Shown here one piece after another: positions 23,012 to 42,400 of a stretch of DNA of 55,890 bases. The position numbers were made by a program, and so were the translations under genes. How positions within the stretch are numbered: the stretch's first letter is position 1; each line of letters starts with the position of its first letter. Origin of the DNA: Roseomonas sp. E05 (GTDB taxonomy: Bacteria > Pseudomonadota > Alphaproteobacteria > Acetobacterales > Acetobacteraceae); contig NZ_JASIRT010000031.1 in NCBI RefSeq assembly GCF_030063475.1, forward strand, positions 1-55,890, given 5' to 3'. The notes beneath the pieces were generated by a model. It saw only the letters and a list, made by a program, of their open reading frames with translations, did no database searches and was not told the DNA's origin.

Positions 23012-23023
23012 TGGAACGTTCCA
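23012..23023. promoter_or_regulatory. LacI operator TGGAACGTTCCA, copy 1
   Basis: A perfect 12-bp palindrome with central CpG, 28 nt before the start of the LacI gene at 23052. Three near copies lie at 28413, 30933 and 30979, all in promoter regions. Its position fits autoregulation of the regulator and the acyl-CoA genes behind it. Confidence 0.85.
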
Positions 23024-23051
23024 TTGTGGAGGCCGGGATCAGAAGCCTTCC

Positions 23052-24053: not shown

Positions 24054-24079
24054 TGCCCGCCCGCCCTGCCTGCCCCTGA

Positions 24080-24115
24080 CGGGGAGAAGCGTCGGGGAGA
24101 AGCGGCGGGGAGAAG
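24080..24115 (+). repeat. Purine-rich 13-bp tandem repeat before the acyl-CoA dehydrogenase gene
   Basis: CGGGGAGAAGCG begins at 24080 and 24093 and is repeated in shortened form (CGGGGAGAAG) at 24106, an exact 13-bp period; a degenerate fourth copy CGGGAGAA at 24126 is the ribosome site of the next gene. It may be duplicated ribosome-site DNA. Confidence 0.75.
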
Positions 24116-24140
24116 AACGAAGCACCGGGAGAAAACGCCG

Positions 24141-25292
24141 TTGTCCGAGACAAGCCTGCCCCCAGGCGCCGCCGACTGGCACGCCGCCCTGCGCGAGGCG
24201 GCCCGCCGCTTCGCGGACCAGGAGATCGCGCCCCTCGCCGCCGAGCTGGACGAGACCGAGGCCTATCCGGCGGAACTCTACCGCCGCCTCGCCGGCGCCG
24301 GCCTGTTCGGCATCAGCGTGCCGGAGGCGATGGGCGGCGCCGGCGCCGACGTGCTGGCCTATGCGCTGGTGATGGAGGAGCTGTCGCGCGGCTATGCCTC
24401 CGTCGCCGACCAGGTCGGGCTGGTCGAGCTGCTCGGCACGCTGCTGACGCAGCACGGCACCCCGGCGCAGCAGGACCGCTATCTGCGCCCGCTGCTGAAG
24501 GCCGAGCGGCGCTGCGCCTATGCGCTGACCGAGGCCGAGGCCGGCTCCGACCTCGCCGGCCTGCGCAGCCGCGCGCGCCGCACCGGGGAGGGCTGGGTGC
24601 TGGATGGCGCCAAGCTCTGGATCCACAACGCGCCCGTCGCCGACTTCGCCGCCGTGCTGGCGCGCACCGACCCCGAGGCCGGGCATCGCGGCATGTCCAT
24701 CTTCCTGGTCGATCTCGACCGGCCCGGCGTCACGCGCGACCGCAAGGAGCACAAGATGGGCCAGCGCGCCTCGCAGGTGGGCGGGCTGCGCTTCGAGAAT
24801 GTCGCGCTCCCCGCCGAGGCGCTGCTCGGCCAGGAGGGGCGCGGCTTCCACATGATGATGTCGGTGCTGGACAAGGGCCGCGTCGGCATCGCCGCGCTGG
24901 CCGTCGGCATCCTGCAATCCGCGCTGGAGGACAGCATCGACTACGCCAGGCAGCGCCGCCAGTTCGGCCAGGCGATCGGCGAGTTCCAGGCGGTGCAATG
25001 GATGCTCGCCGACATGGCCAAGGACGCGCATGCGGCACGGCTGATGGTGCATCACGCGGCACAGCGGCTCGACCGCGGCGAGCGTGCCACGATGGAGGCC
25101 AGCATGGCCAAGTGCTTCGCCTCGGACGCAGCGGTGGCGCGTACCGCCGACGCCGTGCAGATCCATGGCGGCTCCGGCTACATCCGCGGCGTCCGCGTCG
25201 AGCGGCTCTACCGCGACGCGAAGATCACGCAGATCTATGAGGGGACGAACCAGATCCAACGCATGATCATGGCGCGGAGCCTGCTGGCATGA
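24141..25292 (+). CDS. Acyl-CoA dehydrogenase
   Basis: A 383-residue flavoprotein that introduces a double bond into an acyl-CoA. Visible are the FAD/acyl-CoA signature CAYALTEAEAGSDLAG near residues 131-146, KLWIHNAPVADFAAVLARTD, RRQFGQAIGEFQAVQWMLADM, and QIYEGTNQIQRMIMAR, where Glu367 occupies the catalytic-base position of short- and medium-chain enzymes. It starts with TTG at 24141, preceded by GGGAGA, and no ATG or GTG gives a complete family N-terminus. Follows the LacI gene by 87 nt and overlaps the SDR gene by 4 nt. Likely first oxidative step on the CoA thioester. Confidence 0.93.
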   Translation: MSETSLPPGAADWHAALREAARRFADQEIAPLAAELDETEAYPAELYRRLAGAGLFGISVPEAMGGAGADVLAYALVMEELSRGYASVADQVGLVELLGTLLTQHGTPAQQDRYLRPLLKAERRCAYALTEAEAGSDLAGLRSRARRTGEGWVLDGAKLWIHNAPVADFAAVLARTDPEAGHRGMSIFLVDLDRPGVTRDRKEHKMGQRASQVGGLRFENVALPAEALLGQEGRGFHMMMSVLDKGRVGIAALAVGILQSALEDSIDYARQRRQFGQAIGEFQAVQWMLADMAKDAHAARLMVHHAAQRLDRGERATMEASMAKCFASDAAVARTADAVQIHGGSGYIRGVRVERLYRDAKITQIYEGTNQIQRMIMARSLLA

Positions 25293-26059
25293 GCGCGGCG
25301 CGCAGGCCGGTGGCGCTGGTGACGGGAGGGCGCCGCGGCATCGGCCGCGCCGCCTGCGTCGCCCTGGCGCGCAAGGGCTTCGACATCCTCGCCGCCGACA
25401 TCGCGGAGGAGGGCGTGGCGGAGACCGGCGCCGAGGTGCGGATGGCCGGTGGCGGCTTCCGCTTCCGCCCGCTCGACGTCTCGCGGCTGGAGGATCACGC
25501 CGCCTTCCTCGACGCGGCCTGGGAGGACGGCGGCATCGATTGCCTGGTGAACAATGCCGGTGTCGGCGCGCTGCGGCGTGGTGACCTGCTCGACGTCTCG
25601 CCGGACTCCTGGGACCGCGCCTTCGGCATCAACGCGCGCGGCAGCTTCTTCCTGACCCAGGCCGTGGCGCGGCGCATGATCGAGGCGGGCGATCCGGCGG
25701 CGCCCCGCAGCATCGTCTTCGTCTCCTCCGCCAACGCCACGCTCGCCTCGCCCGACCGCGGCGAGTACTGCGCCTCCAAGGCGGCAGTCTCGATGCTGGC
25801 GCGCGTCTTCGCACTGCGCCTGGCGGAGCATGGCATCGCCGTGCACGAGGTGCGGCCCGGCGTCATCCGCACCGACCTCACCGCACCGGTGGCCGAGGCC
25901 TATACGCGGCGCATCGCCGAGGGCCTGTCGCCGATCCGCCGCTGGGGCGAGGCGGAGGATGTCGGCCGCGCCATCGCGCTGCTGGCCTCGGGCGAGCTGA
26001 CCTTCACCACCGGCGACGCGCTGCACATCGACGGCGGCCTGCATGTCGGCCGGCTCTGA
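25289..26059 (+). CDS. Short-chain dehydrogenase/reductase (3-ketoacyl reductase-like)
   Basis: A 256-residue Rossmann enzyme with TGGRRGIG nucleotide loop (12-19), NNAG (88-91), and catalytic Ser147, Tyr160 and Lys164 (SSANA, YCASK). It ends with the standard GDALHIDGGLHVGRL. By context it would oxidise the hydroxyacyl-CoA formed by the hydratase, or a ring hydroxyl. Overlaps the acyl-CoA dehydrogenase gene by 4 nt. Confidence 0.93.
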   Translation: MSAARRPVALVTGGRRGIGRAACVALARKGFDILAADIAEEGVAETGAEVRMAGGGFRFRPLDVSRLEDHAAFLDAAWEDGGIDCLVNNAGVGALRRGDLLDVSPDSWDRAFGINARGSFFLTQAVARRMIEAGDPAAPRSIVFVSSANATLASPDRGEYCASKAAVSMLARVFALRLAEHGIAVHEVRPGVIRTDLTAPVAEAYTRRIAEGLSPIRRWGEAEDVGRAIALLASGELTFTTGDALHIDGGLHVGRL

Positions 26060-26088
26060 ACTTTCCTCCCTGGGGACGGAGACGCACG

Positions 26089-26580
26089 ATGGCCGATCAG
26101 CGGCTGCACTTCGAGGAGATTTCCGTCGGGATGGCGTGGGAGACCGGCGGCATCCAGGTGACGGAGGCGCATCTTCTGGCCTTCGCCGGCCTGTCGGGTG
26201 ATTTCTACGACATCCATATGGACGATGAATACGCCCGGCGCCTTGGCTATCCCGGCCGTGTGGCGCATGGAATCCTCGGCCTTGCCATGGCCGACGGGCT
26301 GAAGAACCGCGCGCAGACGCAACTCGCGGCGATCGTCTCGCTGGGCTGGCGCTGGCGCTTCACCGGGCCGATCTTCATCGGCGACCGGTTGCAGGCCAGC
26401 ATCCGCGTCACCGCTTTGCGCCCGACGCGGCACGCCGACCGCGGCATCGTCACGCTGGGCTTCGAGTTGCGCACGCAGCGCGGCGAGACGGTGCAGGAGG
26501 GCGAGAACGACATGATGGTCCATCGCCGCCCCGCGCCCGAGGGTGCGGATCAGCCCTCCCAGCCCTCGATGCCGAGATAG
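26089..26580 (+). CDS. MaoC-type (R)-enoyl-CoA hydratase
   Basis: A 163-residue single hot-dog protein. The hydratase motif is SGDFYDIHMDDEYARR with Asp38 and His43 in the D-x4-H catalytic pattern, followed by YPGRVAHGILGLAMADGL. Such enzymes add water to trans-2-enoyl-CoA. It is the last gene of the lacI-headed unit, 29 nt after the SDR, and its 3' end runs 31 nt into the end of the opposing dehydrogenase gene. Confidence 0.9.
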   Translation: MADQRLHFEEISVGMAWETGGIQVTEAHLLAFAGLSGDFYDIHMDDEYARRLGYPGRVAHGILGLAMADGLKNRAQTQLAAIVSLGWRWRFTGPIFIGDRLQASIRVTALRPTRHADRGIVTLGFELRTQRGETVQEGENDMMVHRRPAPEGADQPSQPSMPR

Positions 26581-27353
26581 GCCGCCGCCAGCCGCGCCTG
26601 CCCCTCATGCATGGCGCGGCCGGTCACCGTGGCGCAGCCGATCTCCCGTGCGGCGGCGATCAGTGGCGTCACCTCGGGATTCGGGATCACGTCGGCCACC
26701 ACCTGGCCGGCAGAGAGCAGCGCGGGGTCGAGCGGCAGCGGGTCCCCCGGCCGCAACCCGAGCGGCGTGGCGTTGACCACGATGTCATGCCCGGCAGGGC
26801 CCTGCGCCTCGGCGGAGACGGCGAGCGCCGGCCAGCCGGCGGCGAGGCGTTCGGCCAACTGCCGCGCGCGCGCCGGCTCAGCATCGTGCAGCACCAGCCG
26901 TGCGGCGCCTGCCCGCGCCAGGGCGAAGGCGATGGCCCGCCCGGCCGCGCCGCAGCCCACCTGCAGGACGCTGGCGCCCCGCGGCGCATGGCCGCTGCGT
27001 TCCAGCCCGTCGCGGAAGCCTTCGCCGTCGAACATCTCGCCCTCCCAGCCGCCTTCGGCGCGGCGGCGGACGGTATTGACCGTGCGGGTCAGCGCCGCCG
27101 TAGGGCCGAGCGCCTGCAGCAGCGGCAGCACCGCCTCCTTGTGCGGCATGGTGATGACCAGCCCATCCAGGTTGCGCAGCCGCGTCAGCCCGTCCCAGAC
27201 CGCCGGCAATTCGCCTGCGGGCACGTGCAGCGGCACGAGGGCGGCATCGCGCCCGAGCCGAGCGAAGGCGGCATTGAACAGCGCCGGCGAGCGCAGCGGC
27301 GCGACCGGGTCGCCCAGGATGCCGAAGAGGCGGGTGGTGCCGGCAATGGTCAT
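26550..27353 (-). CDS. Shikimate/quinate dehydrogenase-like protein (AroE family)
   Basis: A 267-residue AroE-fold protein. Conserved features are LRSPALFNAAFARLG in the substrate pocket, MPHKEA with catalytic Lys72, VNTV with Asn93, FDGEGF with catalytic Asp109, nucleotide-binding VGCGAAGRAIAFALARAGA, and NATPLGL. The usual S-x-S carboxylate clamp is reduced to one Ser (PLRSP) and the N-T-D triplet reads M-F-D, so it is probably a paralogue acting on a different polyol acid rather than the biosynthetic enzyme. ATGA overlap with the Gfo/Idh gene; its tail overlaps the convergent MaoC gene. Confidence 0.85.
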   Translation of the reverse strand: MTIAGTTRLFGILGDPVAPLRSPALFNAAFARLGRDAALVPLHVPAGELPAVWDGLTRLRNLDGLVITMPHKEAVLPLLQALGPTAALTRTVNTVRRRAEGGWEGEMFDGEGFRDGLERSGHAPRGASVLQVGCGAAGRAIAFALARAGAARLVLHDAEPARARQLAERLAAGWPALAVSAEAQGPAGHDIVVNATPLGLRPGDPLPLDPALLSAGQVVADVIPNPEVTPLIAAAREIGCATVTGRAMHEGQARLAAAYLGIEGWEG

Positions 27354-28357
27354 CTGCGCTGCTCCGCATCCCGCAGGAGATCCTCGATCAGCCGCTGCAC
27401 GGCGAGCGCCGAGCGCGCGTCGCAGGCGGGCTTCCGCCCCGTGGCCCTGGCCTCCAGCACGTCGGCGATCAGCGCGCGATGCGGACCATGGTCGAAGGCC
27501 ATGGGGTCGGCGCCGCCGCTCACCGCCGCGGCACCGAGCGTCTCGGCCGCGCCGCCGCGCCCGTGCAAGGTGAGGTGGCTGCCCTCCAGAACGGCCGAGC
27601 CCTCCGTGCCGGCGATCTCGATGCGTTCGGGATAGCCGGGCCGGGCGACGGTGGTGGCGTCCAGCACGCCGATGGCGCCGTTCTCGAATTGCAGCGCCGC
27701 GGCCACGATATCTTCGGTGTCGATGCGGCGCAGGGGCGAGGTGGTGGCGAAGCCCGCGACCGATCGGTGCGGTCCGGCGAGATGCAGCAGCAGGTCCAGC
27801 GTGTGGATCGCCTGGGTCAGCAGCACGCCGCCGCCGTCGCGCGCGCGGGTGCCGCGCCCGGGCTCGTTGAAATAGGCCGCGTCGCGCCACCAGCGGATCG
27901 AGGCGCTGGCGGAAAGCACATCGCCCAGCTCGCCCGCGCGCAGCGCCTGCCGCAAGCGCAGCGCGCCGGGGCGGAAGCGGTGTTGCAGGCAGATGCCGCA
28001 GGCGACGCCATGGTGCTCCGCCAGCGCGGCGAGGGCTTCGCCGCGCTGCACCGAGACCTCCACCGGCTTCTCGACGACCATTGCGCAGCCGACCTTCGCC
28101 ACGGCCTCCGCAACCGGCAGATGTGTGCCGGGTGGCGTCAGGATCAGCACCAGGCCGAGGCCGGGCTGCGCCAGAAGCGCCTCCTGCGTGGTGAAGACCG
28201 GGACGCCCCATCGCTCGGCGAAGGCGGCGCGGCGCCCCTCCGAGGGCGAGAAGCCACCAATGATGGAAACCTCGCCCTGCGCGGCCAGGTCACGCAACGC
28301 CAGCATGTGCGGCGATGCGGCCATGCCGAGCCCGATCAGGCCGACGCCAACCGGCAT
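27350..28357 (-). CDS. Gfo/Idh/MocA-family NAD(P)-dependent oxidoreductase
   Basis: A 335-residue sugar/cyclitol dehydrogenase-type protein: GLIGLGMAASPHMLAL nucleotide fold, VVEKPVEVS with Lys97 in the EKP motif, and GGGVLLTQAIHTLDLLLHL with His185 and Asp188 at the catalytic site. Family members oxidise C3 or C1 hydroxyls of inositols, sugars and glycosides. Start at 28357 follows GGGAGGAAGC. It is divergent from the binding-protein gene across a LacI operator, and cotranscribed with the AroE-like gene. Confidence 0.92.
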   Translation of the reverse strand: MPVGVGLIGLGMAASPHMLALRDLAAQGEVSIIGGFSPSEGRRAAFAERWGVPVFTTQEALLAQPGLGLVLILTPPGTHLPVAEAVAKVGCAMVVEKPVEVSVQRGEALAALAEHHGVACGICLQHRFRPGALRLRQALRAGELGDVLSASASIRWWRDAAYFNEPGRGTRARDGGGVLLTQAIHTLDLLLHLAGPHRSVAGFATTSPLRRIDTEDIVAAALQFENGAIGVLDATTVARPGYPERIEIAGTEGSAVLEGSHLTLHGRGGAAETLGAAAVSGGADPMAFDHGPHRALIADVLEARATGRKPACDARSALAVQRLIEDLLRDAEQRR

Positions 28358-28412
28358 GCTTCCTCCCTTCCTGCCTCCAGCCTTCTTCCGAAGCTTGCGC
28401 GAAACGAACAAT

Positions 28413-28424
28413 TGGAACGTTCCG
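28413..28424. promoter_or_regulatory. LacI operator, copy 2
   Basis: TGGAACGTTCCG, one end base away from the perfect palindrome at 23012. It is centred in the 106-nt gap between the divergent Gfo/Idh and binding-protein genes, so one site can control both. Confidence 0.8.
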
Positions 28425-28463
28425 ATCTTGCTGGTAGCTTCATCCGCCTGGGAGGAAAAGTCC

Positions 28464-30074
28464 ATGGCAATAATCAACATGACCCGGCGCGATCTCGCGC
28501 GGCTGCTGGCGGGCGGGGCGGCAACCCTGCCGTTCCTGCCGAGCGTTGCACGGGCGCAGGGACGGCGCGAGACGCTGGTGATCGGCCTCGACACCAGCGA
28601 CACCGTCACCTTCGATCCCGTCCGCCAGGCGCAGTACACGCCGCCGCTGACGCTGGCCGCCTGCTACGACACGCTGCTCACTTTCGAGCCTGGCGACTAC
28701 GTGAATCCAAAGCCTTGCCTGGCGACGAGGTGGGAGCGGCGCCCGGGCGGCGACGGCTGGCGCTTCACCCTGCGCGAAGGCGTGAAGTTTGCCAGTGGCG
28801 CCCCGCTCACCGCCGAGGACGTCAAGTTCAGCTTCGACCGCCTGATCAACCTGCGCGAGCAGACGCAGGTCTACATCAAGTCGGTGGATCGCGCGGAGGT
28901 GGTCGATGACCGGACCATCGACCTGATCATGAACGCGCCCAAGGCCCCGATCCTGCCGATCCTGTGCAATCCCGGTTGCGCCATCATGGAGCGCGCCGTG
29001 CTGCTGAAGAACGGTGCGGTCGCGACGGCGGAGGCGCGCGACCAGGACAAGGCGACCGAATGGCTCAACGGGCACAGCGCCGGCACCGGCCCTTACCGGC
29101 TCGTGCGCTGGGAGCGCAACGCGCAGATCGCGCTGCAGCGCAACCCGCATTCCTGGCGCGGACCGACCGACTTCGAGCGCGTGATCATCCGCCATCTCTC
29201 GGACAGCGCCGCCCAGCTCCTGGCGCTGCGCCGGGGCGACGTGCACGCTGCGTTCAACCTGATCCCCGAGCACATCAAGGGCCTGCAGGACGAGCCGAAT
29301 GTCCGCACCGAACAACTGCCGAGCCTGGACTTCGTCTACATGGCGGTGACGCAGAATCCGGAGGCGAATCCGGCTCTGGCGAAGAAGGAAGCCCGTCACG
29401 CCATCGGCTATGCCATCGACTACGACGGCATTCTCGGCAGCCTGCTCGGCGGCGCCGGAACCCGCCCGGCGCATTTCCTGCCCATCGGCGTCACCGGCAG
29501 CACGCCCGAGATCGCGCGCGAGATCGGCTTCCATCAGGATCTGGACAAGGCGCGCAGCCTGTTGAAGGCCGCCGGCCTGCCGGACGGGTTCGAGATGGAG
29601 CTGGCCTATGGCAATGCCGCCGTGGCCGGCGTGTCCTACCAGGTGCTGGCGCAGAAGGTTCAATCGGATCTGGGCCGCGTCGGAATCCGCGTCCGCCTCA
29701 ATCCGATGGATCAGGTGAACCTGCGGACGATCTACACCACCGGCAAGATGCAGGGCGCCGTCCTGACATTCTGGAACCCGCCCGCCGTCTCCAATGACCT
29801 TTGGGCCTCGGCGGTCGTGGAGCGGGTGGCCAGGCGCGTCAGCTGGGAGGTTCCGCCGGAGATGACGGCCCTGGTAAGGCAGGCCTCCGAAGCCGAGGAT
29901 GCCGGCGAGGCCGGGCGCCTGTGGGTCGAATGGCAGAAGAAGGTGGTCGATCAGGCCAACCACTTCATCCTGTTCCAGCCGACCTACCAGATCGGCGTCC
30001 GCAAGAGCATCAAGGACTTCCCGCTGACGGCCGCGGGCTGGCAGCTCGACATGGGCGGCGTCACCCTCGCCTGA
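28464..30074 (+). CDS. Peptide-type ABC transporter substrate-binding protein (SBP family 5)
   Basis: A 536-residue periplasmic receptor with a twin-arginine-like signal (MTRRDLARLLAGGAATLPFLP, cleavage near ARAQG). Blocks of the family: TVTFDPVRQAQYTPPLTLAACYDTLLTFEPG, RFTLREGVKFASGAPLTAEDVKFSFDRL, and SAGTGPYRLVRWERN. It has its own promoter region under the LacI operator, 12 nt after GGGAGGAAAAG. Its permeases and ATPase are encoded from 31042 after an inserted crotonase gene on the opposite strand. Confidence 0.94.
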   Translation: MAIINMTRRDLARLLAGGAATLPFLPSVARAQGRRETLVIGLDTSDTVTFDPVRQAQYTPPLTLAACYDTLLTFEPGDYVNPKPCLATRWERRPGGDGWRFTLREGVKFASGAPLTAEDVKFSFDRLINLREQTQVYIKSVDRAEVVDDRTIDLIMNAPKAPILPILCNPGCAIMERAVLLKNGAVATAEARDQDKATEWLNGHSAGTGPYRLVRWERNAQIALQRNPHSWRGPTDFERVIIRHLSDSAAQLLALRRGDVHAAFNLIPEHIKGLQDEPNVRTEQLPSLDFVYMAVTQNPEANPALAKKEARHAIGYAIDYDGILGSLLGGAGTRPAHFLPIGVTGSTPEIAREIGFHQDLDKARSLLKAAGLPDGFEMELAYGNAAVAGVSYQVLAQKVQSDLGRVGIRVRLNPMDQVNLRTIYTTGKMQGAVLTFWNPPAVSNDLWASAVVERVARRVSWEVPPEMTALVRQASEAEDAGEAGRLWVEWQKKVVDQANHFILFQPTYQIGVRKSIKDFPLTAAGWQLDMGGVTLA

Positions 30075-30079
30075 GGGAT

Positions 30080-30113
30080 GGGGAGGGCGGCCGGCGCTCC
30101 TGCCGCCCTCCCC
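30080..30113. terminator. Bidirectional terminator hairpin
   Basis: GGGGAGGGCGGC pairs with GCCGCCCTCCCC (12 bp) around a 10-nt loop, between the converging ends of the binding-protein and crotonase genes. Confidence 0.8.
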
Positions 30114-30130
30114 ACGGGAATGGTGCCGGC

Positions 30131-30898
30131 CTACCGGGCGAAGGTGGCCTGGCGCTTCTCGTTGAAGGCGCGGATGCCCTCCAGATGGTCGCCGGCGCTG
30201 AAGCAGAGCACGTTCATCTCGTTCTCGTAGCGCAGCCCGGCGCTGAGCGGTGCTTCCATCGCCGCCCGCAGCGCCGCCTTCACCGACTGCACGGCGACCG
30301 GGCTGAAGCCGGCGAGCTGCTGCGCCACCGCGCGGGCGCGCGGCAGCAGCTCTGCCGGCGCCACCACCATATGGACCATGCCGAGACGCAGCGCCTCCGC
30401 CGCATCCACCTGTTCGGCCAGCATCAGCAGGCGCGTCGCCGCCGCGTGGCCGATCAGCCGCGGCAGGATCTGCGAGGCGCCGCCGCCGCCGACCCAGCCG
30501 CGCTGCACCTCGGGAAAGCCGATGCGCGTCGTCTCGGCGGCGATGCGGATGTCGGCGCCGAGCGCCATCTCGGCGCCGCCGCCCAGCGTCCAGCCCTGCA
30601 GCGCAGCCACCACCGGCTTGCGGATCTCCCGGATCACCGTGGCGTATTCCAGGCGGTTGCGGAAGTGCCAGGCCGTGGGGTACTCGGCCAGCGCGTTCAG
30701 GTCGCTGCCCGAGCAGAAGGCGCGCTCGCCCTCGCCGCGCAGCAGCACGGCGCGCACGGCATCGTTCTCCTCCAGCGCCCGCGCATGGGCGGCCAGTTCC
30801 CGCGCCATCGCCGGCGTGACCGCATTGTGCTTCGCAGCACGATCGAGGACGAGCTCCGCCACGCCCTCCGCGATCGTCATCCGCACCCCGCCCTGCAT
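30131..30898 (-). CDS. Enoyl-CoA hydratase/crotonase-family enzyme
   Basis: A 255-residue crotonase-fold protein with oxyanion-hole segments AFCSGSDLNAL (59-69) and GWTLGGGAEMALGADIRIA (102-120). Both catalytic glutamates of true hydratases are present: Glu110 in GGGAE and Glu130 in FPEVQRGW. Hydration of an enoyl-CoA is therefore plausible; hydrolytic ring opening, known in this superfamily, is an alternative. Start at 30898 follows GGGAGGAAG. The gene is divergent from the transporter operon across two LacI operators. Confidence 0.92.
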   Translation of the reverse strand: MQGGVRMTIAEGVAELVLDRAAKHNAVTPAMARELAAHARALEENDAVRAVLLRGEGERAFCSGSDLNALAEYPTAWHFRNRLEYATVIREIRKPVVAALQGWTLGGGAEMALGADIRIAAETTRIGFPEVQRGWVGGGGASQILPRLIGHAAATRLLMLAEQVDAAEALRLGMVHMVVAPAELLPRARAVAQQLAGFSPVAVQSVKAALRAAMEAPLSAGLRYENEMNVLCFSAGDHLEGIRAFNEKRQATFAR

Positions 30899-30932
30899 GC
30901 GCTTCCTCCCGGCTTCCTGAAGCAAAGCGGAT

Positions 30933-30944
30933 TATAACGTTCCA
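30933..30944. promoter_or_regulatory. LacI operator, copy 3
   Basis: TATAACGTTCCA keeps the AACGTTCCA core of the perfect site. It lies 35 nt before the crotonase start, on that gene's side of the divergent region. Confidence 0.7.
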
Positions 30945-30978
30945 ACGAGCGGCGCGTGAAGCCCACAAAGGGCTTGAT

Positions 30979-30990
30979 GATAACGTTCCA
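30979..30990. promoter_or_regulatory. LacI operator, copy 4
   Basis: GATAACGTTCCA keeps the same AACGTTCCA core, 46 bp centre-to-centre from copy 3 and 52 nt before the permease start. The pair could allow looping or separate control of the divergent units. Confidence 0.7.
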
Positions 30991-31041
30991 ATGGGACATG
31001 AATTCCCGCAACCATAAGGCAGAGCAGGGAGGACCGGGCCG

Positions 31042-32052
31042 ATGCCGCGCTACATCGCCCAGCGGCTCGTCGCCGCCGCGGTCATGGCGATCCTGGCCAG
31101 CGCCGTCATCTTTCTGATCGCGAACCTGGTACCGGGCGACCCGGTGCTGGCGCAGCTTGGCGACATCGCCGCGAGCGATCCCGCGACGGTCTTGCGGTGG
31201 CGCGCCAAATGGGGCCTCGACCTGCCGCTGTGGGAGCGCTACGGCATTTTCCTGCAGGGGCTGGCGCATGGCGATCTCGGCATCTCCATCGCGACGCGCC
31301 GGCCGGTGCTGGACGACATCATCCAGTATGCGCCGGCCACCGTCGAACTGGCGACGGTGGCCTTCCTGCTCTCGCTGCTGGTCGGCATCCCGCTCGGCAT
31401 CGCCGCCGCCGTGTGGCGCGACGGCTGGACGGATTCCCTGGCGCGCGCCATCTCGCTGCTCGGGGTGTCGGCGCCGACCTTCTGGCTGGCCTTCATCATG
31501 CTGGCGGTCTTCTACGGCGGGTTGGAATGGGCGCCCGGCCCGGGGCGGCTCGACCCCATTGCCTTCCCGCCGGAGGGACCGACCGGCTTCTTCCTGATCG
31601 ACGCGCTCTGGCAGCAGGACTGGGAAACCTTCCGGGACGCGGCGGCGCATCTGGTGCTGCCCTCCATCGTCCTGGCCGCGGCGACGGTCGGGCTGATCAC
31701 CCGCACCACCCGCGCCGCCATGCTCGACAGCCTGCAGCAGGACTATGTCCGCGTCTCCCGCGCCAAGGGGATGCGGGAATGGAGCGTGGTGATGCGCCAC
31801 GCGCTGCCCAATGCCCTGGTGCCGGTGGTGACGCTGGGCGGCCTGGCCTATGCCAACCTGCTGGCCGGCGCGGTGATGACCGAGACGGTGTTCAGCTGGC
31901 CCGGCCTCGGCCGCTACACCTTCCGCTCGGCGGCGGCGCTCGACTTTCCGGCCATCGTCGGCATCACGCTGGTGGTCTCGGTGACCTATCTGCTCGTCAA
32001 CCTGATGGTCGATCTGTCCTATGCCGTGCTCGACCCGCGGGTGCGGCGATGA
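31042..32052 (+). CDS. ABC transporter permease, DppB type
   Basis: A 336-residue permease: N-terminal anchor with LIANLVPGDPVLAQLG near residue 32, the coupling loop RAKGMREWSVVMRHALPNALVP, and terminal SYAVLDPRVRR. First gene of an eight-cistron plus-strand run that continues through transporter and enzyme genes to 39037. ATG follows GGGAGGACCGG. ATGA overlap with the next permease. Confidence 0.94.
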   Translation: MPRYIAQRLVAAAVMAILASAVIFLIANLVPGDPVLAQLGDIAASDPATVLRWRAKWGLDLPLWERYGIFLQGLAHGDLGISIATRRPVLDDIIQYAPATVELATVAFLLSLLVGIPLGIAAAVWRDGWTDSLARAISLLGVSAPTFWLAFIMLAVFYGGLEWAPGPGRLDPIAFPPEGPTGFFLIDALWQQDWETFRDAAAHLVLPSIVLAAATVGLITRTTRAAMLDSLQQDYVRVSRAKGMREWSVVMRHALPNALVPVVTLGGLAYANLLAGAVMTETVFSWPGLGRYTFRSAAALDFPAIVGITLVVSVTYLLVNLMVDLSYAVLDPRVRR

Positions 32053-32918
32053 GCGCCTCCGCCGCCCCCCTCGCGCTGCCGCCCACCCGCTCGCACCTGC
32101 GGCGCCGGCTGCGTCGCTACGGGCCCGCCTGGCTCGGCGGCGGCATCGTGCTGGCCTGGGTGCTGATCGCGCTGCTGGCGCCCTGGATCGCCCCCTATCC
32201 GCCGGATGCGGTGGACGTCACCAGCCGCCTCCTGCCGCCCTCGGCGGCGCACTGGATGGGCACGGACACGCTGGGGCGCGACGTCTTCTCGCGCCTGCTC
32301 CACGGCGCACGGCTGTCGCTCTTCGCCGGCTTCTCCGTGGTTCTGCTGGGTGCGGCGCTCGGCACGCTGATCGGCATCGTCGCCGCCTGGGCGCGCGGCT
32401 GGTGGGACGAGGGGCTGATGCGCCTCACCGACCTCGTGCTGTGCTTTCCGCCGATCATCCTGGCGCTGGCCATCGCCGCCGCGCTGGGTATCGGTCCGGT
32501 CAACACCATCCTGGCGATGCTGGTGGTGTGGTGGCCGAAATTCGCCCGCCTCGCCCGCGCCCTGGCGCTGGTGCAGCGCAGCCAGGAATATGTCGAGGCG
32601 GCGACGGTGCTCGGCCTGAGGCCGCGCCGCATCCTGGCGCGCCACATCCTGCCCAACACGCTCGGCCCGCTCGCCGTGCTGGTCACGCTCGATCTCGGCA
32701 ACGCCATCCTGACATTCGCCGGCCTGTCCTTCCTCGGCCTCGGCGTCATCCCGCCGACGCCGGAATGGGGCTCGATGGTGGCCGAGGGGCGCGAGCTGGT
32801 GGAGCAGTGGTGGGTCGCGACCTTCCCCGGCCTCGCCATCCTCACCGTCGTGGTCGGCTTCAACTTCTGCGGCGACGGCCTGCGCGACTGGCTCGACCCC
32901 AAGGGCCGCAGCCGGTGA
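32049..32918 (+). CDS. ABC transporter permease, DppC type
   Basis: A 289-residue permease with GTDTLGRDVFSRLLHGARLSL after the first membrane segment, coupling loop TVLGLRPRRILARHILPNTLGP, and the end GFNFCGDGLRDWLDPKGRSR. It pairs with the overlapping DppB-type protein and the fused ATPase that follows 29 nt later. Confidence 0.94.
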   Translation: MSASAAPLALPPTRSHLRRRLRRYGPAWLGGGIVLAWVLIALLAPWIAPYPPDAVDVTSRLLPPSAAHWMGTDTLGRDVFSRLLHGARLSLFAGFSVVLLGAALGTLIGIVAAWARGWWDEGLMRLTDLVLCFPPIILALAIAAALGIGPVNTILAMLVVWWPKFARLARALALVQRSQEYVEAATVLGLRPRRILARHILPNTLGPLAVLVTLDLGNAILTFAGLSFLGLGVIPPTPEWGSMVAEGRELVEQWWVATFPGLAILTVVVGFNFCGDGLRDWLDPKGRSR

Positions 32919-32947
32919 GCCTGCCGCCGGACAGGAGATCCCCGCCC

Positions 32948-35005
32948 ATGGACGGATCCATCGCAGCCGCCCCGGGGCAGGCCGAGCAGCCCGTGCTGGA
33001 CGTGCAGGACCTGCACACCGTCTTCATGACCGATGACGGTCCGGTGCATGCGGTGGACGGCGTTTCCTTCCGCGTCGGGCCGGGCGAGACGCTCGGCATC
33101 GTCGGCGAGAGCGGCTCGGGCAAGAGCGTCACCGCGCTGTCGCTGATGCGGCTGCTGGAGGAGCCGGCGCGCATTGTCGGTGGCAGCATCCGGTTCCAGG
33201 GCCGCGACGTGCTGGCCATGTCCCGCACCGAGTTGTCCGACTGGCGCGGCGACCGCGCGGCGATGGTGTTCCAGGATCCGATGACCGGCCTGAACCCGGT
33301 GCTGCGCATCCTGCGCCAGGTGACGGAGCACATCGTCTCGCATGGCCGGATGAAGCCGGCGGCGGCGCGGCGGCGCGGCATCGAGCTGCTGCGCCGCATG
33401 GGCGTGGCCACCCCGGAGCGCGCCGCCGGCGCCTTTCCGCACGAATTCTCCGGCGGCATGCGGCAGCGGGTGATGATGGCGATCGGCGTCGCCAACGACC
33501 CTGTGCTGCTGATCGCCGACGAGCCGACCACCGCGCTCGACGTCACCATCCAGGCGCAGATCCTCGACCTGCTGCGCGGGCTGAACCAGGAGTTCGGCAC
33601 CGCCATCGTGCTGATCAGCCACGATCTCGGCGTGATCGGCACGGTCTGCCGCCGCGTCGCGGTGATGTATGCCGGCGAGGTGGTGGAGGAGGCGGCGACG
33701 GAAGCGGTGCTGGCCGATCCGCGCCATCCCTATTCCTGGGCGCTGGTCAATGCCGTGCCGCGCCTCGACGCGCCCGTCGGGGCGCGGCTGACCAGCATCG
33801 AGGGCACGCCGCCCGATGCGCTGAACCCGCCGCCGGGCTGCCGCTTCGAGCCGCGCTGCCCCTTCCGCATCAGCCGCTGCGCGCAGGAGCATCCCCCCCT
33901 GCTGGAGGTGGCGCCCGGCCGCCGCGCCCGCTGCTGGGTCACCGCCGATGGCCGCGCCCTGCCGCGCCCCACCGTGCCGGCGGCCGCCGCCGCCGAGCCG
34001 CCGCGCATGGCCGAGGCGCCGCTGCTGGAGGCGCATGGTGTGGAGAAGCACTTCCCCCTGCCGCGCCGCGCCTGGTTCGCGCCGCGCGGCGCGGTGCATG
34101 CGGTGAACGGCGTGGACATCGCGCTGCACCGGCGGGAGAGCCTCGGCGTCGTCGGTGAGAGCGGCTGCGGCAAGTCCACCCTGGCGCGGCTGCTGACGCG
34201 GCTGCACGAGCCCACCGGTGGCCGCGTCACCTTCGAGGGGCGCGACATCACCCGGGCCTCGGCGGCCGAGATGCGGCCGTTGCGGCCGCGGCTGCAAATG
34301 GTCTTCCAGGACCCCTATGCCTCGCTGAACCCGCGCATGACGGTGGGCGACGCCCTGGCTGAGCCGCTGCGGGCGCATGGCCGCGTGGCATCGCGCCGGG
34401 CGGCCGCGGAGCGGGTGGCGGAGCTGCTTGCCACCGTCGGGCTCAAGCCGGCCTTCGCCAGCCGCTTCCCGCACGAGTTCTCCGGCGGCCAGCGGCAGCG
34501 CATTTCCATCGCCCGCGCCCTGGCGCTCGATCCTGCCGTGGTGGTGGCGGACGAGCCCGTCTCGGCGCTCGACGTGAACGTCCAGGCGCAGGTGCTGAAC
34601 CTGATGCTGGACCTGCGCGAGCGGCTCGGTCTCTCTTACCTGTTCATCGCGCATGACCTGGCGGTCGTGCGCGCCTTCTGCGACCGCGTGGCGGTCATGT
34701 ATCTCGGCCGCATCGTCGAGGAAGGGCCGGCCGACGAGGTGCTGTCGCGGCCGCTGCACCCCTACACGGTGGCGCTGACCAGCGCGATCCCCGACCCCGG
34801 CCGGCAGCGCGTGGTGCTGGGTGGCGAGCCGCCCTCCACGCTGCGCCTGCCCACCGGCTGCGCCTTCCGTGCACGCTGCCCCGTGGCGCGCGCCGAATGC
34901 GAGGCGACGCCGCCGCTGGCCGATCTCGGCGCCGGCCGCCGCGTCGCCTGCCATTTCCCCGGGGCCTTCGCGCCCCGCACCACAGCGAGACTGGAGACCG
35001 TGTGA
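32948..35005 (+). CDS. Fused two-domain ABC ATPase (DppD-DppF in one polypeptide)
   Basis: One 685-residue chain carries both transporter ATPases. The first half has GESGSGKSV (53-61), signature [27 protein letters not shown] and Cys motif CRFEPRCPFRISRC. After a Pro/Ala-rich link (TVPAAAAAEPP) the second has GESGCGKST, FSGGQRQRISIARAL, VVVADEPVSALD and CAFRARCPVARAEC. In the operon at 2042-11043 these domains are separate genes. The fusion is intact with no frameshift. ATG follows AGGAGA; the stop shares a base with the CoA-transferase start. Confidence 0.95.
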   Translation: MDGSIAAAPGQAEQPVLDVQDLHTVFMTDDGPVHAVDGVSFRVGPGETLGIVGESGSGKSVTALSLMRLLEEPARIVGGSIRFQGRDVLAMSRTELSDWRGDRAAMVFQDPMTGLNPVLRILRQVTEHIVSHGRMKPAAARRRGIELLRRMGVATPERAAGAFPHEFSGGMRQRVMMAIGVANDPVLLIADEPTTALDVTIQAQILDLLRGLNQEFGTAIVLISHDLGVIGTVCRRVAVMYAGEVVEEAATEAVLADPRHPYSWALVNAVPRLDAPVGARLTSIEGTPPDALNPPPGCRFEPRCPFRISRCAQEHPPLLEVAPGRRARCWVTADGRALPRPTVPAAAAAEPPRMAEAPLLEAHGVEKHFPLPRRAWFAPRGAVHAVNGVDIALHRRESLGVVGESGCGKSTLARLLTRLHEPTGGRVTFEGRDITRASAAEMRPLRPRLQMVFQDPYASLNPRMTVGDALAEPLRAHGRVASRRAAAERVAELLATVGLKPAFASRFPHEFSGGQRQRISIARALALDPAVVVADEPVSALDVNVQAQVLNLMLDLRERLGLSYLFIAHDLAVVRAFCDRVAVMYLGRIVEEGPADEVLSRPLHPYTVALTSAIPDPGRQRVVLGGEPPSTLRLPTGCAFRARCPVARAECEATPPLADLGAGRRVACHFPGAFAPRTTARLETV

Positions 35006-36558
35006 TGAGGCGCATGCGCGCAGCGGAAGCCGCCCGGCTGGTTCAGGACGGCGACACGCTGCTGATCGGCGGGTCCGGCGGCGGCCATGCGGTGCCCGAC
35101 GCGCTGCTGGCCGCGATCGGCGAGCGGTTCCGCGCGAGCGGCGCGCCGCGCGGCATCACCGCCCTGCATCCGGTCGGTCTCGGCGACGGCAAGACGCGCG
35201 GCGCCGGGCATCTGGCGCAGGACGGGCTGCTGAAGCGCGTCGTATCCGGCACCTTCGTCAACAGCCCCGGCATCGCGCGGCTGGCGCTGGACGAGAAGAT
35301 CGAGGCCTATACCCTGCCGCAGGGCTCGCTCTCCCAGCTCATGCGCGAAATGGCAGCGGGCCGCCCCGGGCTGCTCACCCGCATCGGTCTGCACAGCTTC
35401 GTCGATCCGCGCCTCGGCGGCGGCCGGCAGAGCCGCTGCGCGACGGAGGACCTGGTCGAGCTGGTTGAGTTCCGCGGCGAGGAATATCTGTTCTATCGTC
35501 CCTTCAAGGTCGATGTCGCGCTGGTGCGCGGCTCGGCCGCCGACGAGGACGGCAACATCTCCATGGAGCATGAGGCCGTCACGCTGGAGATGCTGAGCAT
35601 CGCCCAGGCGGCGCGGCGCTCCGGCGGGCTGGTGATCGCGCAGGTCAAGACCATCGTGCCGCGCGGCGCGCTGCACCCGAAGATGGTCAAGGTGCCCGGC
35701 ATCCTGGTGGACGCGCTGGTGCATGTGCCGGACCAGTGGCAGACCTACGAGACGCAGGACAGCCCGGCCTATTCCGGCCACCTGCGTGTGCCGTTGGAGG
35801 AGATCCCGCGCCTGCCAGCCGGCCCGCGCCGTGTGGTCGCCCGCCGCGGCGCGATGGAATTGTTCGAAGGCGCCATCTGCAACCTGGGTTCCGGCATTTC
35901 CACCGGCATCGCCAACGTGGCGGCGGAGGAGGGGGTGCTGCGCCGCGTCTGCCTGACCAACGAGCAGGGCAATATCGGCGGCGCCCCGGCCAGCGGCGGC
36001 GATGCCGGCGCCGCCCGCTCGCCCGACGCGCAGGTGGACCAGCCCTACCAGTTCGACTTCTACGATGGCGGCGGGCTCGATCTCGCCTTCCTCTCCTTCG
36101 CCGAGTTCGACGCCGAGGGCAATGTCAACGTCTCGCGCTTCGGCGGCCGCATCGTCGGGCCGGGCGGCTTCGTCAACATCAGCCAGGGCGCCCAGGCGGT
36201 GATCTTCGGCGGCACGCTGACCGCCAGTGGCGCGCCCAAGGCGGTGCGTCAGGTGGAGCAGGTCACCTTCTCCGGCCGCTTCGCCCGCGAGCGCGGCCAG
36301 CCCGTGCTCTACGTCACCGAGCGCGCCGTCTTCCGCCTCGGCGATGCGGGGCCGGAGCTGATCGAGATCGCGCCGGGGCTGGACCTGGAGCGCGACGTGC
36401 TCGGCGTCATGGGCTTCCGCCCGCGCGTCTCGCCTGAGCTGCGGGAGATGGAGGCCGCACTCTTCGAGGATGGCCCGATGGGACTGGCCGGCCGCCTGCC
36501 GGGCCGGCGGCAGCGTCCGGCGCTGACCCGTCTCGTCGAACTGCAGGCGGCGGAGTAG
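35005..36558 (+). CDS. Class I CoA-transferase (fused alpha-beta, YdiF/propionate CoA-transferase type)
   Basis: A 517-residue enzyme moving CoA between carboxylic acids. The N-terminal half holds TLLIGGSGGGHAVPDALLAAIG; the C-terminal half holds CNLGSGISTGIANVAAEEG and the active-site loop TNEQGNIGGAPASGG, where Glu320 would carry the CoA thioester. Acyl acceptor specificity is unknown. The gene is coupled by TGATG to the importer ATPase, arguing that the imported compound, or an acid made from it, is activated with CoA on entry. Confidence 0.92.
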   Translation: MRRMRAAEAARLVQDGDTLLIGGSGGGHAVPDALLAAIGERFRASGAPRGITALHPVGLGDGKTRGAGHLAQDGLLKRVVSGTFVNSPGIARLALDEKIEAYTLPQGSLSQLMREMAAGRPGLLTRIGLHSFVDPRLGGGRQSRCATEDLVELVEFRGEEYLFYRPFKVDVALVRGSAADEDGNISMEHEAVTLEMLSIAQAARRSGGLVIAQVKTIVPRGALHPKMVKVPGILVDALVHVPDQWQTYETQDSPAYSGHLRVPLEEIPRLPAGPRRVVARRGAMELFEGAICNLGSGISTGIANVAAEEGVLRRVCLTNEQGNIGGAPASGGDAGAARSPDAQVDQPYQFDFYDGGGLDLAFLSFAEFDAEGNVNVSRFGGRIVGPGGFVNISQGAQAVIFGGTLTASGAPKAVRQVEQVTFSGRFARERGQPVLYVTERAVFRLGDAGPELIEIAPGLDLERDVLGVMGFRPRVSPELREMEAALFEDGPMGLAGRLPGRRQRPALTRLVELQAAE

Positions 36559-36562
36559 GGCG

Positions 36563-37000
36563 ATGGACAGCGTCACCCGCCTCGCCGCCGGCGACCAGGT
36601 GGAGTTCCACCGCGCCATTTCCGCTGAGGACATCCGCGCCTTCGCCGAACTCAGTGGCGACCACGACCCCGTGCATGTGGACGAGGATTTCGCCCGCACC
36701 ACGGCTTTCGGCCGTTGCATCGCGCATGGCGCGCATGTCATGGCGCTGGTTTCCGCCGCTTCCTCGCTGATGTCACGCCGCGCGGTGGAGCGTGGCTGCG
36801 CCGGCACGCCGGTCTCGGCCGGCTATGACCGCATCCGCTTCACCCACCCGGTCTTCGCGGGCGATGCGCTGACCGCGCGCTACACTGTTGAGGCGCTGGA
36901 GGAAGTCCCCGGCCGCACCCGCTCCCGCTTCGAGGTGGTGAACCAGGAGGGCCGGCTCTGCGTCACCGGCACGCATATCCTGCGCTGGGTCGAGGGCTGA
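36563..37000 (+). CDS. MaoC-type (R)-enoyl-CoA hydratase, second copy
   Basis: A 145-residue hot-dog protein with the classic SGDHDPVHVDEDFARTT motif (Asp33, His38) and CIAHGAHVMALVSA. It is only distantly similar to the MaoC protein at 26089, so the pathway seems to use two hydrations. Starts 4 nt after the CoA-transferase stop. Confidence 0.91.
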   Translation: MDSVTRLAAGDQVEFHRAISAEDIRAFAELSGDHDPVHVDEDFARTTAFGRCIAHGAHVMALVSAASSLMSRRAVERGCAGTPVSAGYDRIRFTHPVFAGDALTARYTVEALEEVPGRTRSRFEVVNQEGRLCVTGTHILRWVEG

Positions 37001-37014
37001 GGGAGAGCACGACG

Positions 37015-38181
37015 ATGGCCGAGATTCGTTTGCCAGTTGCCGGCGGCCGCCTGCAGCCCTACCGCCTGCAGGGCCGCGCCCTTCCGGCGCCCGTGCCCGG
37101 CGCACGCTTCAACCGCATCGCCTATTCGGCGGCGCATGTGGTGGCCGACCCCTTCGCGGAGACCTCGCCGCATGCCGGCGCGGTCATCGACTGGGACCGC
37201 ACCATCGCCTACCGCCGCCATCTCGCCGGCCTCGGGCTCGGCATCGCCGAGGCGATGGACACGGCGCAGCGCGGCATGGGGCTGGACTGGCCCGCCGCGC
37301 GCGCGCTGATCACCCGCAGCCTGCGCGAGACACGCGACATTCCCGGCATCCGCATCGCCTCCGGCTGCGGCACCGACCAGCTCGACCCGCGCGACGCGCG
37401 CGGCACCGACGACGTCTTGCGCGCCTATATGGAGCAGCTGGAGGCCATCCAGGCGCAGGGCGGCCGGCTCATCATGATGGCCAGCCGCGCCCTGGCGCGT
37501 GTCGCCCGCTCGCCGGAGGACTACCGCGCGGTCTATCGCCGCGTGCTGGGTGCGGCGGAGGCGCCGGTCATCCTGCACTGGCTCGGCGACATGTTCGACC
37601 CCGCCCTGTCGGGCTACTGGGGCTATGAGGATTTCGACGGCGCGCTGCGCACCTGCCTGGAGATCATCGAGGAGAACCGCGGCCGCATCGACGGCATCAA
37701 GATCTCGCTGCTGGACGACGAGAAGGAGGTGCGGATGCGCCGTCTGCTGCCGGCCGGCGTGCGGATGTACACCGGCGATGACTTCAACTACCCCGCGCTG
37801 ATCGCCGGCGACGCGGAGGGCCATTCCGACGCGCTGCTCGGCATTTTCGACGCCATCGCGCCTGCCGCCTCCCTGGCGCTCGCGGCGCTGGCGGAGGGCG
37901 ACACCGCGCGCTTCCACGCCGTCCTGGAGCCGACCGTGCCGCTCTCGCGCCGGATCTTCGGCGCACCCACGCAGTTCTACAAGACGGGCGTGGTCTTCCT
38001 CGCTTACCTGAACGGCCACCAGGACCATTTCATCATGGTCGGCGGCCAGCAATCCATGCGCCCGCTGGCCTATTTCGCCGACATCTTCCGCATGGCCGAT
38101 GCCGCCGGCCTGCTGCGCGACCCGGAGATGGCGGCGGCACGGATGCGGCGCCTGCTGGCGCTCTACGGCATCGAGGGCTGA
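37015..38181 (+). CDS. DUF993 family, dihydrodipicolinate synthase-like protein
   Basis: A 388-residue protein of the DUF993 group, distantly related to class I (Schiff-base) aldolases. Its IDGIKISLLDDEKE segment (near residue 226) offers a Lys at the position expected for imine formation. Other conserved-looking parts are ASGCGTDQLDP, EAPVILHWLGDMFDPAL and QFYKTGVVFLAYLNGHQDHFIMVGG. No reaction is established for the family; retro-aldol or hydro-lyase action on a keto sugar or keto acid is inferred from fold and neighbours. Confidence 0.82.
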   Translation: MAEIRLPVAGGRLQPYRLQGRALPAPVPGARFNRIAYSAAHVVADPFAETSPHAGAVIDWDRTIAYRRHLAGLGLGIAEAMDTAQRGMGLDWPAARALITRSLRETRDIPGIRIASGCGTDQLDPRDARGTDDVLRAYMEQLEAIQAQGGRLIMMASRALARVARSPEDYRAVYRRVLGAAEAPVILHWLGDMFDPALSGYWGYEDFDGALRTCLEIIEENRGRIDGIKISLLDDEKEVRMRRLLPAGVRMYTGDDFNYPALIAGDAEGHSDALLGIFDAIAPAASLALAALAEGDTARFHAVLEPTVPLSRRIFGAPTQFYKTGVVFLAYLNGHQDHFIMVGGQQSMRPLAYFADIFRMADAAGLLRDPEMAAARMRRLLALYGIEG

Positions 38182-38185
38182 ACCC

Positions 38186-39037
38186 GTGCGGGACCTCGCG
38201 GGCCGGCCGGATCTCTGCGCCATCAACACCGCCACCCTCGGCCACTCGGCGCCGATCGGCGCGGTGATCGAGGCGGTGGCACGGCAGGGCTTCGGCGGCA
38301 TCGCCCCCTGGCGGCGCGACCTGGAGGGGCAGGACGTCGCCGCCGTGGCGCGGCAGATCCGCGACGCCGGCCTCGCCGTTACCGGCTATTGCCGCAGCAG
38401 CGCCTTTCCCGCCGCCACGCCGGAGGCCGCCCGCGCGGCCGTGGAGGAGAACTGCTGCGCCCTGCGCGACGCCGCCACCCTCGGTGCCCGCTGCTTCGTG
38501 CTGGTGGCCGGCGGCCTGCCGCCCGGCTCGCGCGACCTCGCGGCGGCTCGGCGGCAGTTGCGGGACGGCGTCGGCGCGCTGCTGGAGGAGGCGCGGCAAC
38601 TCGGCGTCACCCTGGCGCTGGAGCCGCTGCACCCCGTCTATGCCGCCGACCGCTCCTGCCTCTGCACGCTGGGCGAGGCGCTCGACCTCTGCGACGCGCT
38701 GGACCCGGAGGCGCGCGGCGGCCTCGGCGTCGCGGCCGACGTCTACCACCTCTGGTGGGACGCCGCCCTGCCGCGCGAGCTGCAACGCGCGGCGCAGCGC
38801 CGCCGCATCGCCGCCTTCCATGTCTGCGACTGGCTGGTGCCGACGCGCGACGTGCTGCTCGACCGCGGCATGATGGGCGACGGTGTCATCGACATCCCCG
38901 CCATCCGCGCCGCCGTCGAGGCGGCGGGCTATGGCGGGCTGGTGGAGGTCGAGATCTTCTCGGCGCAGGACTGGTGGCGGCGGCCGATGGAGGAAACCCT
39001 CGCGGTCTGCGCCGAGCGGCTGGGGAGCGTCTGCTGA
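38186..39037 (+). CDS. Sugar phosphate isomerase/epimerase-like TIM barrel
   Basis: A 283-residue xylose isomerase-like barrel. Putative metal ligands are Glu in LALEPLHPVY, Asp in VAADVYHLWWD, His in AFHVCDW and Glu in VEVEIFS. It starts at GTG, 9 nt after GAGGG, and lies 4 nt downstream of the DUF993 gene, so the two likely act in sequence. Proteins of this fold isomerise or epimerise keto sugars and, in some bacteria, cleave oxidised glycosides with Gfo/Idh partners. Confidence 0.87.
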   Translation: MRDLAGRPDLCAINTATLGHSAPIGAVIEAVARQGFGGIAPWRRDLEGQDVAAVARQIRDAGLAVTGYCRSSAFPAATPEAARAAVEENCCALRDAATLGARCFVLVAGGLPPGSRDLAAARRQLRDGVGALLEEARQLGVTLALEPLHPVYAADRSCLCTLGEALDLCDALDPEARGGLGVAADVYHLWWDAALPRELQRAAQRRRIAAFHVCDWLVPTRDVLLDRGMMGDGVIDIPAIRAAVEAAGYGGLVEVEIFSAQDWWRRPMEETLAVCAERLGSVC

Positions 39038-40123: not shown

Positions 40124-40127
40124 CGTC

Positions 40128-41042: not shown

Positions 41043-41060
41043 GGCCGGGGTCCTTTCAGG

Positions 41061-42350: not shown

Positions 42351-42400
42351 GCGCAATCCCTGTCTGAGGGCGGAGAGGCCGTCCGGGCCCGGAGCCGCCG

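Follow-up and report, generated by a model that had tools for sequence, protein, structure and literature searches.

Results

Gene content of the block

This work concerns a block of about 15 genes at 23052-39037 in the high-G+C, 5.73-Mb genome of Roseomonas sp. E05, in which enzymes of coenzyme A (CoA) ester chemistry stand next to sugar-type enzymes and a protein of the DUF993 family. The window analyzed is the whole contig NZ_JASIRT010000031.1, 55,890 bases long. Genes were called from reading frames with strong third-position G+C and from family scans (Pfam, NCBIfam), and starts were then refined. Every gene named in a first-pass annotation of the sequence was found where that annotation had placed it, with Pfam or NCBIfam matches that confirm the mixture of beta-oxidation and sugar-type enzymes it had proposed. 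The genes and predicted operators are as follows.

23013-23024, unstranded: predicted LacI-type operator upstream of lacI, palindrome GGAACGTTCC
23052-24053, + strand: LacI-family regulator, presumed repressor of the block (PF00356, PF13377)
24141-25292, + strand: acyl-CoA dehydrogenase (ACAD), TTG start (PF00441, PF02770, PF02771)
25289-26059, + strand: SDR dehydrogenase, PRK12745 group (NF009386, 345 bits against a cut-off of 250)
26089-26580, + strand: MaoC-type hydratase 1 (PF01575)
26550-27353, - strand: AroE-like dehydrogenase, under all NCBIfam shikimate dehydrogenase cut-offs; nearest solved chain 4k28
27350-28357, - strand: Gfo/Idh/MocA oxidoreductase (PF01408, PF22725)
28412-28425, unstranded: predicted operator in the gap between gfo and the solute-binding protein gene (pattern match)
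28464-30074, + strand: family-5 solute-binding protein, Opp type (PF00496)
30131-30898, - strand: crotonase-family enoyl-CoA hydratase (PF00378), GGGAE and FPE glutamates retained
30934-30945, unstranded: predicted operator 1 in the gap between the crotonase gene and oppB (pattern match)
30980-30991, unstranded: predicted operator 2 in the same gap (pattern match)
31042-32052, + strand: OppB permease (PF00528, PF19300)
32049-32918, + strand: OppC permease (PF12911 and PF00528 sharing one frame)
32948-35005, + strand: fused OppD-OppF ATPase (two PF00005 and two PF08352 stretches), alternative GTG start at 32915
35005-36558, + strand: single-chain family I CoA-transferase, YdiF-like (PF01144; 2ahu YdiF, E 3.5e-121)
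36563-37000, + strand: MaoC-type hydratase 2 (PF01575)
37015-38181, + strand: DUF993 protein, putative Schiff-base aldolase
38186-39037, + strand: xylose-isomerase-like TIM barrel (AP_endonuc_2), putative sugar isomerase/epimerase, GTG start

The closest solved chains to the Gfo/Idh/MocA protein are of nucleotide-sugar, inositol, or glucuronide dehydrogenase types, and OppD and OppF are joined as a single 685-residue ATPase. The two hydratases and the crotonase of the first-pass annotation are present; both hydratases are MaoC-type, and the crotonase makes a third hydratase. Residues that we take to be catalytic are retained in the ACAD (the glutamate of YEGT), both MaoC proteins (Asp-His), and the CoA-transferase (the glutamate in NEQGNIGG). 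The crotonase keeps both glutamates of what we take to be the hydratase pair, and it therefore looks like a hydratase. The CoA-transferase is the sole activating enzyme recognized in the block, with no CoA-synthetase found there.

A predicted LacI regulon

The operator pattern RKAACGTTCYRW was derived from the window sites together with the sites of one relative. It matches the window five times over both strands, which amounts to four sites since one palindrome is counted twice; 0.04 matches are expected from shuffled sequence, and none of 100 shuffles reached five. In the whole genome just one match lies outside the window sites, beside an unrelated-looking reading frame, and the reversed pattern, used as a control, gave 2 matches genome-wide. 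All four sites recur in the equivalent gaps of relatives G107, G162, G168, and G239, and no site was found in relatives whose fetched block is without lacI (L208, L210, L211, L212, L213, and L166). At L224, lacI is present at 71% identity, yet no site lies within 8.7 kb. Because lacI and the operators mostly travel together, the block is a single predicted LacI-controlled regulon, as first proposed, although it starts at lacI (23052), slightly upstream of the interval originally drawn.

CoA genes accompany one type of DUF993 locus

We compared 91 loci, namely the best 80 of 587 DUF993 relatives on genome contigs (a choice biased toward near relatives), 10 plasmid loci, and the window. Loci were sorted by the dehydrogenase adjoining DUF993, so that the dehydrogenase count holds by definition, into 42 SDR-type, 42 Gfo-type, and 7 of neither kind. 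Clusters of unassigned open reading frames were mostly antisense frames, and only a few transporters were taken from them.

Among the 42 SDR-type loci, the isomerase was present in 37, CoA-transferase in 35, ACAD in 33, GMC oxidoreductase in 29, aldehyde dehydrogenase in 24, crotonase in 23, two aldo-keto reductases in 18 and 16, electron transfer flavoprotein subunits in 13 and 12, and glycerate kinase in 11. Sugar importers were also present, and nothing aromatic or glycosidic recurred among the gene families counted. The 42 Gfo-type loci carry the isomerase (38) and an enolase-like protein (25), with no CoA-transferase or crotonase and a single ACAD (30% identity). The difference holds in loci of at least 19 kb (CoA-transferase in 26/30 SDR-type versus 0/31 Gfo-type; ACAD in 24/30 versus 1/31). 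CoA-transferase and ACAD occur together in 28/42 SDR-type loci, 17 of which also have crotonase; the set is thus conserved in other genomes, and this linkage spans alpha- and betaproteobacteria and Pseudomonas, with annotated examples on plasmids of Janthinobacterium, Paracoccus, Sinorhizobium, and Roseateles. ACAD is the best conserved member (median 67% identity to the window across SDR-type loci; Caballeronia locus L097 has one second copy at 37%).

In a DUF993 tree of 90 rows (quick search, SH-aLRT support only), one change separates the SDR- and Gfo-types when the 7 unsorted rows are left out. The window lies inside the SDR-type clade (97), and SDR-type rows L037 and L039 sit on long branches at the base of the other side.

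A tblastn search of the whole window with a single PcaF query (E 1e-3) found no thiolase, in agreement with the first-pass annotation; by this search the window lacks the thiolase that closes the cycle in a canonical beta-oxidation operon. Among the SDR-type loci this query detected a thiolase in 1/42, within a neighboring beta-ketoadipate-type cluster.

The GMC and aldehyde dehydrogenase genes are missing from the block in the window and from L097, and likewise from seven more SDR-type loci, some of them short. The best matches in the window's genome to the Janthinobacterium aldo-keto reductase and GMC reach 48% and 43%, so no close copy of these genes was found elsewhere in the genome. A GMC oxidoreductase frame in the window (11123-12994, - strand) has 42% identity over part of its length to the GMC of the Janthinobacterium DUF993 cluster. 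Glycerate kinase is also absent from the block, and another part of the genome encodes a protein related at 51% to the Janthinobacterium kinase. L097 carries TRAP and MHS transporters. At two other loci, luciferase-like monooxygenases and more Opp-type transport genes adjoin the CoA genes (L166, 7461-10810; L167, 4720-5769). The Paenarthrobacter pAO1 plasmid cluster (L035, 9762-16379) is a Gfo-type DUF993 set with a glycerate kinase and with an aldehyde dehydrogenase whose annotation assigns it to D-xylose catabolism.

The DUF993 protein

The DUF993 family has solved structures (4dnh, SMc04132), and its fold is a (beta/alpha)8 barrel of the dihydrodipicolinate synthase (DHDPS) type. K229, in strand 225-231 (barrel strand 6), is invariant among the aligned loci and occupies the Schiff-base lysine position; it lines up with the invariant DHDPS lysine, though via a non-significant profile alignment. 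The protein has no GTTGE-type string, which we take to be the carboxylate motif of strand 2; some DHDPS relatives in the same genome also lack it, and DUF993 has an invariant motif of its own at strand 2, EAMDTAQRG. The same 92 invariant residues are common to Gfo-type and SDR-type DUF993, and five positions alone distinguish the types at 85%. The fold and the position of K229 suggest a putative lysine-dependent aldolase. Of 72,556 plasmid records, 147 contain a relative, and many of these come from Sinorhizobium and Rhizobium. No paper mentioning "DUF993" was found in the literature searched, which leaves most subscription journals outside its coverage; SMc04132 and SMc04133 appear in a regulation table in the available part of one paper. 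The window also encodes a DHDPS-family protein (PF00701, 128 bits; 44045-44854, - strand, within a longer frame at 43958-45298).

A variant with AroE-like and Gfo dehydrogenases

The AroE-like protein together with the window-type Gfo occurs in 2/42 SDR-type loci, the window and L097, and the pair marks a regional variant of the set. A search of 347 genomes of the window's own family with the AroE-like protein returned 21 at 63% identity or more, its own included. Block genes and CoA enzymes are present in 11 of these (G000, G162, G168, G005, G205, G330, G346, G266, G075, G104, and G113), some with partial blocks: G205 has AroE, Gfo, crotonase, and CoA-transferase only, the G075 contig stops after OppC, and G113 is split over contigs. 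The block is present in G107 and G239 as well, where the AroE-like gene is more divergent. The AroE-like and Gfo genes are orthologous parts of the block in relatives, and G104 and G005 have a second crotonase outside it. The remaining 10 of the 21 genomes, chiefly of one genus, have AroE with SDR, or AroE with Gfo, isomerase, and an enolase-like protein, and no CoA genes. Where the surroundings were scanned (two loci), they hold tripartite tricarboxylate transport genes and amidohydrolases: L219 (5579-12807) has AroE-like, SDR, and two amidohydrolases next to the transport genes, and L222 (6242-17932) has AroE-like, Gfo, isomerase, and enolase-like genes next to them. These clusters are possibly related acid pathways without CoA.

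DUF993 lies inside the block in G000, G107, G162, G113, and G239 and on a separate contig in eight genomes (G168, G330, G346, G266, G205, G075, G005, and G104). All eight remote genes are flanked by a pAO1-type Gfo and the isomerase, forming a Gfo-DUF993-isomerase triad. In six of these relatives DUF993 is not beside the block over several kilobases; in G266 and G075 the contigs end soon or within the block. All block genomes tested possess DUF993, linked or unlinked, with one copy in 11/11 block genomes examined. Within genus g1, DUF993 is present in 5/5 block genomes (G000, G107, G162, G205, and G239) and in 1/5 without the AroE ortholog, a comparison that is not unbiased because G107 and G239 were found via DUF993.

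Elsewhere in the window, an SDR, an allantoinase/polysaccharide-deacetylase-like protein, an MHS-type transporter, and an IclR regulator adjoin the block at 39377-43265, beyond its operator-bearing part. A hydantoinase A-type protein and a tripartite tricarboxylate transport receptor lie at 13122-15164 and 18187-19200.

Discussion

Many soil and plant bacteria carry related sets, and this one therefore looks like a real catabolic route for a small sugar-like acid. We tentatively read the block as a regulon under LacI control that serves to break down a small polyhydroxylated acid, with CoA as a temporary handle; no thiolase would be needed because DUF993 would do the carbon-carbon cleavage. 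We regard this as quite possible, if short of probable. From the observed gene content, regulon, conservation, fold, and residues, we infer the order of steps, the form (free acid or CoA ester) that reaches DUF993, the DUF993 reaction, and the kind of substrate. The acid would be imported by the Opp system in the window and loaded with CoA by the family I CoA-transferase; ACAD, the MaoC hydratases, and the crotonase would then make a double bond adjacent to the thioester and hydrate it. The transferase would hand the CoA back to a further molecule of substrate, in the manner of bacterial carnitine metabolism, and the product, no longer the saturated acid, would be oxidized to a ketone by the SDR, Gfo, or AroE-like dehydrogenase. 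DUF993, as a lysine-dependent aldolase, would cleave this ketone, and the TIM-barrel isomerase would handle a sugar-like intermediate or fragment. In SDR-type relatives, the sugar ABC importer, GMC and aldehyde dehydrogenases, and aldo-keto reductases would form a front end converting a sugar or polyol to the acid, and glycerate kinase would feed one product into glycolysis. An acid as the imported compound fits the window and L097, since both are without this front end and L097 has the TRAP and MHS transporters.

Three constraints bear on how these parts fit together. CoA genes accompany one DUF993 lineage; the invariant residues of DUF993 are found equally in a lineage with neither CoA-transferase nor crotonase in its neighborhoods; and genomes whose block is without DUF993 have a Gfo-type triad. 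The simplest reading is that a free acid, made ready by the CoA enzymes, enters a shared dehydrogenase-DUF993-isomerase module and that the transferase recycles the CoA. Stated in full, a sugar-derived acid may be desaturated and hydrated on CoA and then cut by DUF993, a candidate new lysine-histidine aldolase family replacing thiolase, in a widespread and undescribed route; we advance this with rather more doubt than assurance. As specific substrates, 2-deoxysugar, inositol, quinate, methyl-tetrol, and glucosylglycerol were considered, and none accounts jointly for ACAD, DUF993, and glycerate kinase.

Several observations weigh against this interpretation. L044 and the short, truncated L086, both SDR-type, have no CoA-transferase, ACAD, or crotonase, and ACAD is missing from 9/42 SDR-type loci. 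The profile comparison of DUF993 with DHDPS was not significant (hhalign probability 0.3%), and H188-W189 stands where DHDPS has its catalytic tyrosine (strand 5); because of this histidine, we do not class DUF993 as a DHDPS or N-acetylneuraminate lyase. The carnitine transferase CaiB presumably belongs to a different family from the family I enzyme here. Three full-length thiolases are encoded elsewhere in the genome, so a pathway whose cluster has no thiolase may still use one. DUF993 is also present in block-less genomes (6/6 in genus g4 and 4/4 in genus g102), and the co-occurrence of block and DUF993 is weak once relatedness is considered. Finally, the SDR remains beside the CoA genes even in relatives with a remote DUF993, and it may therefore be an ordinary 3-hydroxyacyl-CoA dehydrogenase.

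The unlinked thiolases would serve an arrangement of two modules on one promoter, in which short-chain beta-oxidation runs beside a separate sugar module (Gfo, DUF993, and isomerase) for the other half of the same imported conjugate or for a different nutrient. The CoA/AroE/Gfo block without an adjoining DUF993 in six relatives, and L044 with SDR, DUF993, and isomerase but no CoA genes, are in its favor; the linkage repeated in 28/42 SDR-type loci of alphaproteobacteria, betaproteobacteria, and Pseudomonas, the conservation of ACAD, and the DUF993 in every block genome examined make it somewhat unlikely. Alternatively, the 3-ketoacyl-CoA that ACAD, hydratase, and SDR produce might itself be the substrate of DUF993, which would then take the place of thiolase within the beta-oxidation cycle: a Schiff base at the 3-keto group would permit C4-C5 retro-aldol cleavage to an acetoacetyl-CoA-type product and an aldehyde becoming glycerate. 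All beta-oxidation steps but thiolase are indeed in the window, DUF993 adjoins ACAD and SDR in most SDR-type loci, and the aldehyde dehydrogenase (24/42) and glycerate kinase (11/42) could process that aldehyde. If DUF993 acted on a CoA ester, one would expect more trace of this than five positions separating it from a Gfo-type that shares its 92 invariant residues and has no CoA-transferase or crotonase nearby, and we consider direct cleavage unlikely.

The first-pass annotation had offered two substrate models, neither of which is specifically supported; its interpretation as a whole is partly supported. One was a quinate-like hydroxylated carbocyclic acid whose ring hydroxyls are oxidized by the AroE-like and Gfo proteins and whose ring is opened by the crotonase. 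The orthology of AroE-like and Gfo in relatives' blocks, a sub-threshold shikimate transporter match of the L097 MHS transporter, and the second crotonase in G104 and G005 are consistent with it. The AroE-like protein, however, falls under every shikimate/quinate dehydrogenase cut-off (172 bits, where the best model requires 252), most SDR-type loci have neither member of the AroE-Gfo pair, which is found in 2/42 and in a set of family relatives, and the crotonase glutamates presumably mark a hydratase rather than a ring-opening enzyme. AroE relatives also include the sugar-acting 5-ketofructose reductase, according to the available text of PMC7954740, so AroE does not imply a carbocycle; we find this model improbable. 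Still harder to credit, to the point of being very improbable, is an acyl or phenylpropanoid glycoside whose sugar is removed by Gfo and the TIM barrel before the acid is beta-oxidized. Gfo and isomerase-type barrels do co-occur in known 3-keto-glycoside routes, and Opp importers are able to carry conjugates, but the block shows no gene for the degradation of aromatics, the recurrent genes of SDR-type relatives are those for GMC and aldehyde dehydrogenases, sugar importers, and glycerate kinase, with no aromatic or glycosidic family among those counted, and the model leaves no role for a DUF993 aldolase.

Establishing what DUF993 does would give an annotation to a locus common in soil and plant-associated bacteria, would show how sugar-acid and acyl-CoA chemistry can be spliced without a thiolase, and would indicate a nutrient for which many bacteria living with plants seem to have the enzymes. 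The claim that no standard pathway has this set stands to the extent that no description of it was found in the literature searched, with pathway databases outside the scope; nor did a literature search on pAO1 ORF39 turn one up.

Comparison with known systems

DUF993 resembles the class I aldolases DHDPS and N-acetylneuraminate lyase in fold and in the position of its strand-6 lysine, and differs in having no significant sequence match, a histidine for the catalytic tyrosine, and its own strand-2 motif. The Paenarthrobacter pAO1 cluster has in common with the SDR-type set DUF993, a dehydrogenase, GMC, aldehyde dehydrogenase, glycerate kinase, and a sugar ABC importer, whereas it has no CoA-transferase, ACAD, or crotonase, and another Gfo subfamily replaces the SDR. 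The nearest described case found is the oxidation of deoxyribonate via acyl-CoA intermediates in Klebsiella michiganensis, where, in the portion of PMC6365646 available, a sugar acid is carried as a CoA ester and oxidized at C3, glycerate kinase leads into glycolysis, and the cluster includes a CoA-transferase. That pathway uses a CoA-synthetase and a thiolase, and the same portion describes no acyl-CoA dehydrogenase, DUF993, or isomerase barrel. The carnitine enzymes CaiA, CaiB, and CaiD, as far as the accessible text of PMC2131755 goes, act on a quaternary amine with no dehydrogenase, aldolase, or isomerase afterwards; like the block, they combine an ACAD-type enzyme, a crotonase, and a CoA-transferase, and CoA cycles from product to substrate without a thiolase.

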